Part shown: positions 6,150 through 8,742 of the stretch, in pieces
Layout: each line of letters begins with the position of its first letter
Numbering within the stretch: the stretch's first letter is position 1
Source of the DNA: Methanothrix sp.
GTDB lineage: Archaea > Halobacteriota > Methanosarcinia > Methanotrichales > Methanotrichaceae
Reading direction: 5' to 3'
Assembly: GCA_028679775.1 (NCBI GenBank)
Contig: JAJRAX010000042.1
Location: 1 to 14,064, forward strand
DNA: 14,064 nt
Notes under the pieces: generated by a model
What the model was told of the DNA's origin: nothing
Seen by the model: only the letters and a program-made list of their open reading frames with translations
The model's database searches: none
Position numbers and translations under genes: made by a program

Positions 6150-7286
6150 TCAGAAATGAAACTCTACATGGAAGGGTATGTAGAAGATCCACACGAAGTA
6201 TACTGCCATCAGGATGAGTCCCAGTGGGACGCCAAGCTTTGCCCATTCCTTGCTGGAGATGCCGAGCTTACCTGCAGAGATGATGTTGGGGATGTTTCCT
6301 GGAATCAGCATGCCACCGGCGATGAGCAATCCCATTAGAACCGCCTTAATTTGAGTCAAGCTCATGGCCGGACTTATCTCGGCAGCCGTTAGCGTGGCAT
6401 TATCAAGAATTGCAGAGACCATGTTGACCCAGTAGAGGATCTCTGGCGATATGCCGAGGACGTACTTGTCTATAACAACCTTCATTCCAGCGCCTAATAG
6501 CAGAAGAGCCATGACGAAGACATAGACCTTAATGGCCCTCATGCCCACATCTTTCAGGCCGCCGTCATCTTCTTCACTCGCTTTGGATTCCACGGCCTTG
6601 GCTTTGCCGGTAAAGAACATGGCCAGAAGGCCCATAGCCAGACAGCCGGGAATAATGTAAATAGCGAGCTGGTTGAAGAGGAAGAAGAATGCAGCATGGA
6701 AAGGTTCTCCCTGCAGCTTGGTGATGGCAATGGTGGAAAGCGGCTCGCCTACGGGAGTCAGAACTGCACCAAGGCCAATGGAAAAGCATGCGATGATGAC
6801 TACATTGATTTTGGTCTGCCTGTCAAAGGGCATGCAGTTCATGAGCTCTACCAGGAGCAAAGAGGCGATGATGGCCGTAATAACGCTTGAAAACATGCCC
6901 AGGAGAGCAACAATCAAGAATACGATTATTTTAGCTGGAACCTTTTTGGTGATGGAATTCATTGAACTTTGGACGTAATTTTTTCCATAATAGAAGAGAA
7001 GGCCTGCGACCAGCACCGCGGGAACGATTCCCTTTACTATCGGCTCTTTAATGGCCTCCATTACTATTTCCATGTTCCAGCCAATGAGCTCCGCCTGGTG
7101 TTCGGTGTAGCCCAAGGAAGCCATTAAAGCCTCTTTGTTGTAGAAGCTGGATATCGTTACCGCCAATATTCCCATAACAAACAGAAATGCCTCAAGGTTG
7201 TGCTCAATCTTCTTGACCATAAATGGTCCAACGAGCACAATAAGGACTATAGCTAATAAACCAAGGTCTAACGGGTCAAACTGCAC
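6150..7286 (-). CDS. DUF1646 family membrane transporter (ion-transporter superfamily)
   Basis: A 378-residue polytopic membrane protein with ten or more hydrophobic segments, and a charged cytoplasmic loop (KAKAVESKASEEDDGG) in the middle. It matches DUF1646, common in methanogens and related to the ion-transporter superfamily of Na+- or H+-coupled carriers. Family-like motifs are GLGAVLTPVGEPLSTIA in the first half and a second-half counterpart around SAILDNATLTAAEISP. The start is set by the ribosome site: GGAGGG seven bases upstream of a GTG at 7286, giving MQFDPLDLG. A longer frame to 7352 lacks such a site and adds a charged, non-homologous-looking tail. The substrate is not known. It stands alone, with a long regulatory-looking upstream region. 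Confidence 0.85.
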   Translation of the reverse strand: MQFDPLDLGLLAIVLIVLVGPFMVKKIEHNLEAFLFVMGILAVTISSFYNKEALMASLGYTEHQAELIGWNMEIVMEAIKEPIVKGIVPAVLVAGLLFYYGKNYVQSSMNSITKKVPAKIIVFLIVALLGMFSSVITAIIASLLLVELMNCMPFDRQTKINVVIIACFSIGLGAVLTPVGEPLSTIAITKLQGEPFHAAFFFLFNQLAIYIIPGCLAMGLLAMFFTGKAKAVESKASEEDDGGLKDVGMRAIKVYVFVMALLLLGAGMKVVIDKYVLGISPEILYWVNMVSAILDNATLTAAEISPAMSLTQIKAVLMGLLIAGGMLIPGNIPNIISAGKLGISSKEWAKLGVPLGLILMAVYFVWIFYIPFHVEFHF

Positions 7287-7514
7287 AATTATTCCCTCCA
7301 GTATCTGATGATCGTTATTTGCTTTTCCGACCCATGGCCACATCTCTGCCACAGGTCGTCCTCATTGCTTGCAGATGCCGCATGCCGTTGCATACTCATG
7401 ATGCAATTAAGGTGGCTTCGCAGCATAACCATTGACGGAATCCTTCGGTACAGACCGATTCGATCTGGGAATCCTGAGCGCGAACCACAGAGCCATACGA
7501 TATTTATGGCTAGT

Positions 7515-7570
7515 CTACCATTTTTCCGAATTGGCTAAATGGTAGTTAACCTTTTCGGATGAAATACCAT
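7515..7570. promoter_or_regulatory. Triple half-site inverted repeat upstream of the DUF1646 gene
   Basis: CTACCATTT (7515-7523) and AAATGGTAG (7537-7545) are perfect 9-bp complements. The second half-site is reused with TACCAT at 7565-7570. Between the last two lies GTTAACCTTTTCGG (7545-7558). The alternating half-sites look like an operator for a dimeric regulator. It lies 230-280 bases upstream of the transporter start. Confidence 0.45.
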
Positions 7571-7607
7571 AAAAATCTCTTTTCGCACGCAATACAATCT
7601 AAAAAAG

Positions 7608-7628
7608 CGCCAAAAAATTTTTAAAGAG
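7608..7628 (+). promoter_or_regulatory. BRE/TATA promoter before the candidate ncRNA
   Basis: GCGCCAAAAAA followed by TTTTTAAAGAG. The TATA centre is near 7622, so the predicted start is about 7648, exactly the first base of the long stem described in the next entry. Confidence 0.45.
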
Positions 7629-7647
7629 ATTTAATTCATTGAAAGAT

Positions 7648-7774
7648 GTTAGGCAGACCGGAACCGGATGGCATAAACAGTATGTACTGTATCGGTCTTT
7701 GCTGGAGGTGGTCTAGGCCCCTGTAAAGTGAACTCCTGTACAGACTGCATGCGCAATCCGGCCTACCTGCTAAC
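7648..7774 (+). ncRNA. Candidate structured small RNA (about 127 nt)
   Basis: The ends pair: GTTAG (7648-7652) with CTAAC (7770-7774), CAG (7654-7656) with CTG (7767-7769), and CCGG (7658-7661) with CCGG (7758-7761). That is 12 base pairs broken by a one-base bulge and a small internal loop. Inside, ACCGGAT (7663-7669) pairs with ATCGGT (7691-7696), enclosing a hairpin ACAGT-ATGT-ACTGT (7677-7690). A second arm can form from GGAG (7704-7707) with CTCC (7733-7736), and TTGC with GCAA (7753-7756). A promoter sits at the right distance upstream and T-tracts follow at 7790-7803. It is not 5S, SRP, RNase P or tRNA as far as can be read. No ORF with a ribosome site covers it. The structure is by eye; no covariation was examined. 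Confidence 0.4.
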
Positions 7775-7788
7775 TCATTGATTTATTG

Positions 7789-7822
7789 GTTTTTAACCTT
7801 TTTGGTATAATGGTAAAAAAGG
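7789..7822. promoter_or_regulatory. T-tracts and inverted repeat after the candidate ncRNA
   Basis: TTTTTAACCTTTTTGG: the two T5 runs could terminate the plus-strand RNA. CCTTTTT (7797-7803) and AAAAAGG (7816-7822) form a 7-bp inverted repeat with ATGGTA between them. This resembles the elements at 7515-7570, 9565-9620 and 11284-11316. Confidence 0.35.
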
Positions 7823-8292
7823 AAATTAGCCAAATACCAGGCAGAATTTAAATACGGATCCGCAGTCCAATCTTCGGGACAGAAGGCAAAGAAAGATAAT
7901 GACCCCCACAGTCTTATGTGGGCGGACAGGAAGATAGAGCGAATCCGATTGAGAACAGATTGCTGAAAAGTTATGCTCAGGTGTGAATTATCGCTATCCT
8001 ATGATATATCGGTTAGGCTCAGGGGCAAATATGGCTCACAAAGACCGTTGATCGATATCCTGAGAGTTGCCCACCGAGAAGAGCGAAGAGACGAAATAAT
8101 CATGCGTTGCGCGAAATATGATGATTTTCAAATTATGCGAGCCAAGAAGCATGTTGATCTGCCCATTTTGTGCTGACCTTGGAAACAACCAATATAGGGA
8201 GTTCATCGATGGCCCATATATGATCCGTTAATCCTGCGTGAGGGTTATACTCACATGCTATGGAGTCGCGACGTTTTGAACATTTTTGGCGC
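7823..8292. other. Non-coding stretch with a strong TATA box and small hairpins
   Basis: No convincing gene. TTTAAATA (7847-7854) is a near-perfect plus-strand TATA box predicting a transcript from about 7877. That transcript would carry a hairpin CCCACA-GTCTTA-TGTGGG (7905-7922) lying inside a 12-codon reading frame that begins at ATG 7898. Further on, CTCAGG...CCTGAG and GGGCAA...TTGCCC between about 8017 and 8080 are short complementary pairs. A 67-codon frame at 7973-8176 lacks a ribosome site and homology signals. The stretch may be a leader, a small RNA or gene decay. Confidence 0.3.
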
Positions 8293-8742
8293 TCATTTGC
8301 CGCCCTGCATCCTCCTCAGGCTCTTAATGATATCCACGGCCATAACTGAAGGTACTCTATCTAGCTGACAGGTTGTCAGTATCCTAAAGAGCTCATCCCG
8401 TTGCGCCGATGCCGTATGTTGAGCCACATACAACATTGCACCTTGATATCCTTCATCAACCAGGCTTTTTTGGACATGCTCCATAATGCCCTCATCGATG
8501 TTGATCTTCGTTGTGCCGATATCGTTAATCACTTTTGATAGTCTGTCTCTGCTAAAATTCAAGTTGGATTCAATCGAGACTGTAGATTCCTGCACAAAAT
8601 TTAGAGCCTTCTCGGAAGCGCCATTCAGTATCATTTCTGATGCGAGCTTCTTCAAGGTCTTCCCTTGGAGAATGGCTTCCGCCTCTAAAGCCATGTACGC
8701 TTCTTGGGTAATTTCTATTCGGGTATATTTTACGCTGGGCAT
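8293..8742 (-). CDS. Ribbon-helix-helix-like N-terminus, hypothetical protein
   Basis: A 149-residue soluble protein. Residues 4-45 (a polar strand VKYTRIEIT, a helix EAYMALEAEAILQ, a Gly turn, and a helix LKKLASEMILNGA) fit a CopG/Arc-type ribbon-helix-helix DNA-binding fold. The remaining hundred residues are predicted helical, with no named domain (LSKVINDIGTTKINIDEGIMEHVQKSL, then LFRILTTCQLDRVPSVMAVDIIKSL). The ATG at 8742 has only a weak GGCGAG leader. It is isolated among long non-coding stretches that contain palindromic sites, so a role as a local regulator is possible but inferred. Alternatives are an antitoxin or a partitioning-type protein. Confidence 0.6.
   Translation of the reverse strand: MPSVKYTRIEITQEAYMALEAEAILQGKTLKKLASEMILNGASEKALNFVQESTVSIESNLNFSRDRLSKVINDIGTTKINIDEGIMEHVQKSLVDEGYQGAMLYVAQHTASAQRDELFRILTTCQLDRVPSVMAVDIIKSLRRMQGGK

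Follow-up and report, generated by a model that had tools for sequence, protein, structure and literature searches.

According to the available excerpt of its description, the Na+-I riboswitch, formerly the DUF1646 motif, is a bacterial RNA with two stems, P1 and P2, and DUF1646 proteins are predicted to be Na+/H+ antiporters (White et al. 2022, PMC9337991). For the mgtB Mg2+ transporter of Salmonella, the excerpt available describes an 8-codon leader ORF, mgtQ, which is located between two genes of the operon, and a stem-loop that hides the transporter's own RBS (PMC8092293).

Here, we analysed a window of 14,064 nucleotides (the whole stretch of DNA) from Methanothrix sp., in which a hairpin is located upstream of a DUF1646 gene. 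Energy metabolism of methanogens depends on Na+, and, to our knowledge, few cis-regulatory RNAs have been described in archaea. A DUF1646 leader makes RNA control of ion transport in methanogens directly testable, and it was after this gene family that the bacterial Na+ riboswitch was first named.

The preliminary description of this DNA had proposed a new, free-standing structured RNA on the plus strand. By comparison with relatives, the fold of 7648-7774 is real, but its strand is minus and it is part of the leader of the gene that we call DUF1646-I, and the hairpin is probably an uncatalogued leader element of Methanotrichaceae. The paired ends, the long internal arm and the intergenic position were all present as described; the ends do pair, but the predicted plus-strand fold lacks the 12 uninterrupted bp claimed for them. 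The features concerned are as follows.

6150-7286, minus strand: DUF1646-I transporter gene (PF07854, E 1.1e-114), with its GTG start at 7284-7286 placed by a conserved SD and start (the form in the ORF list is longer, to 7352)
7640-7780, minus strand: leader hairpin element, the homologous unit aligned in A3, including 7648-7774 (alignment, pairing and energy comparisons)
7760-7767, minus strand: 5' strand of the closing stem, GGTAGGCC, which holds an SD-like sequence; transcription would be expected to start near its first base, judging from the TATA distance
7652-7659, minus strand: 3' strand of the closing stem, GGTCTGCC (closing-stem counts)
7704-7717, minus strand: conserved loop core, CCTAGACCACCTCC (GGAGGTGGTCTAGG on the plus strand), from the alignment; we take it to resemble the 16S 3' end

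Homologues and gene context

The preliminary description had recognised no known structural RNA in 7648-7774, and no Rfam family matched it. At the gathering score the window gave only a tRNA elsewhere, 7400-8300 gave two weak unrelated models at E up to 10, and six related loci gave only an unrelated snoRNA model at E up to 1. On neither strand did the element match an Rfam family, the Na+-I riboswitch included if it is among the 4227 models. Searches of the literature on DUF1646 riboswitches, archaeal or Methanosaeta noncoding RNA and archaeal leader peptides revealed no description of the element among the matches listed, judged by title and the start of the abstract.

A DNA search matched 10 of 41 genomes including the window's own, all of one genus. 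With a covariance model built from nine sequences (alignment A1), 13 of the 26 genus genomes were matched at E<=0.05 and the other 13 were not; eleven were below 1e-11, corresponding to 12 places, two of them in G013 (G denotes genomes and L loci; L006 is G013a, L008 is G019, L088 is G234 and L121 is G218). The two marginal genus matches were in G023, adjoining DUF1646, and in G008, a genome without detected DUF1646. Among 237 genomes of the class, 17 were matched at E<=0.01: the eleven genus genomes, two members of sister genera, G218 (3.9e-6) and G234 (0.0013), and four with marginal matches. The G234 locus was also located independently beside DUF1646. Thus, the covariance model suggested in the preliminary description did find homologues in the genus and its sister genera, but covariation among them is weak, as column shuffles reach the observed counts (see below). 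Mean column identity was 70-74% among the nine aligned sequences, in which the stem strands and the loop core are conserved. In some DUF1646-bearing genus genomes the element is degenerate (G011, G023 and G014), shortened (G018 and G019) or absent.

Matches outside the family were rejected as homologues (G103, G149, G206 and G207, E 0.001-0.008). Of the three inspected in context (G103, G206 and G207), two fall inside long ORFs and the third lies in a gap between ORFs, none of them DUF1646; the match of G149 spans 22 nt.

In the minus reading, DUF1646-I is downstream of the element at 13 of 14 places (12 in the genus, G218 and L088); at the fourteenth, G013:C121, the contig ends. The order in G218 is element, mtrE and DUF1646 (PF07854, E 3.8e-119). 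DUF1646 was detected in 20 of the 26 genus genomes. A second paralogue, DUF1646-II, is located on the plus side of the element in G006, G007, G024, G016 and G019, where a short leader and a promoter-like string of its own precede it. In G010, G015, G005 and the window no DUF1646-II was found nearby on that side, which leaves DUF1646-I as the constant partner.

Several other features of these loci were observed. The mtrE gene of G218 (L121 3330-4235, PF04206, E 1e-120) is in an unusual place for a Na+-pump subunit. An origin of the element from an mtr-operon leader, an idea raised by this gene, was rejected: the upstream parts scanned had no P1-like motif and the two inspected were unlike the element (6 of 23 mtrE loci were located by the search string, and one upstream part was only 64 nt). 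The neighbours of the hairpin in the window are the DUF1646 gene and, at 8293-8742, a gene for a ParD-like protein of 149 aa, both on the minus strand; the Pfam match of the latter is weak (E 4.1e-4, below the Pfam cut-off), and similar proteins, MPS..YTRIEITQEAYM, are found near DUF1646 in several relatives. Arrays of DUF1646 copies were observed at G003:C1:1217000-1231200 (9 matches in G003) and in G001:C50 and C121 (8 in G001), and some of their ORFs reach 579 aa. A tRNA-Pro(cgg) at 801-891 on the plus strand of the window has 91 nt by ARAGORN, a length that suggests an intron. The DUF1646-II leaders (L055:1370-1450 and nine others, alignment A4) share a conserved hairpin, in which CAUC..GAUG encloses CUCUC..GAGAG and which is flanked by the promoter-like string CCAAAAGCRTTTAATATTGG and GAGGTGGTCTAATG; RNAalifold found no both-sides change in A4, and Rfam had no match at L054 and L055.

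Strand of the hairpin and flanking signals

On the plus strand, 7648-7774 (127 nt) folds at -45.3 kcal/mol (z -2.35, with 5 of 200 shuffles as good). In the register common to relatives, the C.A and A.C mismatches of the plus-strand stem are G.U pairs on the minus strand. Over 14 sequences, the closing stem has 112 cells, of which the minus reading pairs 107 and the plus reading 89; 18 cells were paired on minus only and none on plus only. When a second helix was included (125 cells), 93.6% were paired on minus and 80.0% on plus, against 28.0-40.0% (minus) and 16.4-36.4% (plus) in slid-partner controls. The shuffle-corrected ensemble energy, taken as minus strand less plus strand, favoured minus in all ten full-length sequences compared (z -0.38 to -3.43; G013a and G218 were excluded), a preference missing from the shortened elements of G018 and G019. 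By absolute stability, plus is slightly above minus in the window (-45.8 vs -43.5) and in G007 (-41.9 vs -39.8), and the fold of G218 has -56.6 kcal/mol on minus and -39.7 on plus. Strand calls for intergenic hairpins need relatives: G.U versus A.C in one stem made up most of the decision here.

Of 13 sequences, 10 allow an apical stem around the core. Compared with shuffled flanks its sum was unusual (2/1000), a result carried by G006 and G024, whereas the other 7 of the 9 sequences were individually ordinary. Shuffling the 3' letters within columns reached the observed pairing in 123 of 500 trials and the observed double changes in 380 of 500, and column-shuffle tests on alignments A1 and A2 gave no excess. 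Covariation is thus weak, and it is the register, the tolerance of G.U and the fold energies that make the case for a structure. In these alignments, L006, which differs from L004 by one base within the unit, was excluded from A1, A3 and the nine-sequence apical-stem test, and L008 was excluded from A1-A3 as its core is missing.

The signals on either side of the hairpin are listed below.

7788-7806, minus strand: P1, a conserved 19-nt BRE/TATA-like motif, ACCAAAAAGGTTAAAAACC, presumed to be the leader promoter (read as a T-tract terminator in the preliminary description)
7601-7617, minus strand: two T6 tracts (7612-7617 and 7601-7606), a candidate terminator in the window genome, overlapping the plus-strand BRE/TATA-like string at 7610-7626
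7541-7559, minus strand: P2, a second P1-like motif found as a direct repeat, presumed to be a nearer promoter of DUF1646-I in the window genome
7400-7519, minus strand: unit A, a second related leader segment with approximate bounds, which adjoins the hairpin in some relatives

The P1 region reads ACCAAAARRGTTAAAAACCTTTT on the minus strand of the genus alignment. The pattern ACCRAAARRGTTAAAARCC had 14 matches in 13 of the 26 genus genomes and none in reversed-pattern controls; 13 matches were upstream of DUF1646-I and one was at the contig end of G013:C121. By archaeal convention TATA is about 26 nt before the transcription start, and a transcript from P1 would have the first bases of the closing stem as its 5' end. 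The promoter and terminator of the preliminary description appear, on the comparative evidence, to have been swapped as a consequence of the wrong strand. Its BRE/TATA was a string of that kind, CCAAAAAATTTTTAAAG at 7610-7626, but other sequence occupies this place in relatives, which argues against a plus-strand promoter. Its T-tracts exist as T5 at 7790-7794 and 7799-7803, but they are part of the conserved motif that reads ACCAAAAAGGTTAAAAACC on the minus strand, where it looks like an archaeal BRE and TATA.

T-runs of at least five within 120 nt after the hairpin were found in the window, G024 and L088, and in none of the other 7 of 10 sequences. On this ground, the hairpin of most relatives would be the first part of the DUF1646-I leader and not a free-standing RNA. 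In the window, P2 and unit A follow in tandem at 7400-7559 (minus) before DUF1646-I, the two units being adjacent in relatives, and the segments 7530-7558 and 7777-7805 form a direct repeat of 76%. Since a second P1-like copy comes after the T6 tracts and before DUF1646-I, the hairpin RNA may be separate in the window, whereas most relatives may have it within the mRNA leader.

The putative embedded short ORF and rival explanations

Comparison of relatives also suggested a candidate translated ORF inside the hairpin.

7649-7756, minus strand: putative short ORF with a TTG start, 35 codons and a stop

Its start is just past the 5' stem strand in all ten sequences (ATG in eight, GTG in one and TTG in the window). 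No stop interrupts this frame within the hairpin in 9 of 10 sequences, compared with 12 of 50 for the other five frames (G018, G019, G013a and G218 were excluded). Codon changes were more conservative than in column shuffles for G013b/G016 (p 0.0035), for G024/G006 (p 0.047) and for the four together (p 0.008). When eight sequences were compared over their first nine codons, 60 of 1000 shuffles did equally well (G010 and L088 were excluded for gaps). The plus-strand frame that shares wobble positions had similar codon scores in several pairs, so the coding-like signal alone leaves the strand unfixed; exclusion of this frame by stop codons was dropped, as it is open in 6 of 10 hairpins in register, without a homologous start. 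The distance from the start to the 3' strand is 0, 1 or 2 mod 3 by lineage while the 3' strand is kept, which implies that RNA constraint and coding may overlap. The preliminary description had named a short ORF as an explanation of conservation that would speak against a structured RNA. There is some truth in this, as the minus ORF starts in the stem and carries a coding-like signal in two close pairs, but the 3' stem strand and loop core are kept despite the shifting frame. Separately, a 118-aa frame of unit A (G006/G024) was rejected as a protein, with differences of 7, 11 and 7 at the codon positions and 3 synonymous versus 17 other codons.

It is rather unlikely that the element is a small protein gene that evolves fast ahead of DUF1646-I, with the hairpin as a by-product of its sequence and of the masking of its own start. 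The open frame and the conservative codon changes agree with such a gene, as does the G218 ORF of 53 aa, which has two hydrophobic stretches by eye; however, the shifting register against the 3' stem strand, the shuffles that equal the first nine codons and the likewise open plus frame all count against it. Besides, the G218 protein matched only itself and one weak sequence (E 0.033, with one stop) in 50 family genomes, and two of the short ORFs had no Pfam match. We consider it improbable that the locus is a decaying leftover of a promoter and a small gene, now functionless. The degenerate and shortened versions and the varying ORF frames would fit such decay, whereas the stem strands and loop core are still conserved across the nine aligned sequences and the promoter motif is intact in 13 genomes.

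The other two explanations concern a separate RNA. A trans-acting small RNA from the minus strand, ended by the T6 tracts that come after the hairpin in the window, might pair through its loop ACCACCUC with RBSs, for instance the one of DUF1646-II. Between the loop core and the DUF1646-II start GAGGTGGTCTAATG there are 11-12 nt of complementarity, and this start string has 6 occurrences in the 26 genomes, every one at DUF1646-II. However, the two do not change together: G005 has the core GGAGGTGAGCTAAA but the RBS GAGGTGGTCGTATG, and G016 and G013 have the RBS GAGGTGCTC with the core GGAGGTGGTC. With the scarcity of T-runs in relatives added, this explanation too is quite unlikely, and the idea that the loop core controls DUF1646-II as an antisense, rejected for the same lack of co-change, survives only as part of it. 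Even less probable is the free-standing plus-strand RNA from 7648 to 7774 originally proposed. The fold z-score, the slightly more stable plus fold of the window, and a BRE/TATA-like string at a fitting distance with T-tracts behind are in its favour, but the helix counts and the shuffle-corrected energies point to minus, and that BRE/TATA was not found in relatives.

A possible mechanism and comparison with known systems

In the reading that we adopt, tentatively and as somewhat short of probable, a minus-strand transcript starts at P1 (7788-7806) and carries at its 5' end an interrupted hairpin of ~120 nt; in most relatives this transcript would extend into DUF1646-I, whereas in the window genome, to judge by the T6 tracts and P2, the hairpin RNA may stop short of this gene. 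The closing stem would take in the SD-like sequence of the short ORF starting inside the hairpin, so folding and translation of the ORF would compete, and this competition would set DUF1646-I output. Sequence comparison supports a family of homologues located ahead of DUF1646-I, the minus-strand assignment of their closing stem, a nearly locus-specific P1 and a homologous ORF start. That P1 drives transcription, that this reads through into DUF1646-I, that the ORF is translated and that any of this is regulatory we infer. An anti-SD switch onto the DUF1646-I RBS was rejected: pairing prediction with the core ACCACCUCC gave masking in only 2 of 8 core-bearing sequences (strong in G007, partial in the window and none in six others), so any coupling to DUF1646-I is tentative. 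It is highly doubtful that the element is an ion-responsive (Na+-type) archaeal leader RNA, unrelated to the bacterial Na+-I, that toggles between a closed hairpin and translation of the embedded ORF to control the DUF1646 transporter; sodium sensing by the leader is a guess.

Compared with mgtQ as presented in the available excerpt, the locus is alike in having a short ORF overlapped by a stem-loop upstream of an ion transporter gene (PMC8092293); the putative ORF is on the same strand and has its own start in all ten sequences. Unlike mgtQ, where the structure sequesters the downstream RBS, the core-to-SD pairing that would hide it here was predicted in just the two core-bearing sequences named above. 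Like the Na+-I riboswitch in its excerpted description, the element would be a structured RNA leading DUF1646-family genes, and it is in sense orientation upstream of DUF1646, on the minus strand, at 13 of the 14 places (PMC9337991). Unlike Na+-I, with whose published consensus it was compared by description, it is archaeal and has one predicted interrupted hairpin with an embedded ORF (PMC9337991).
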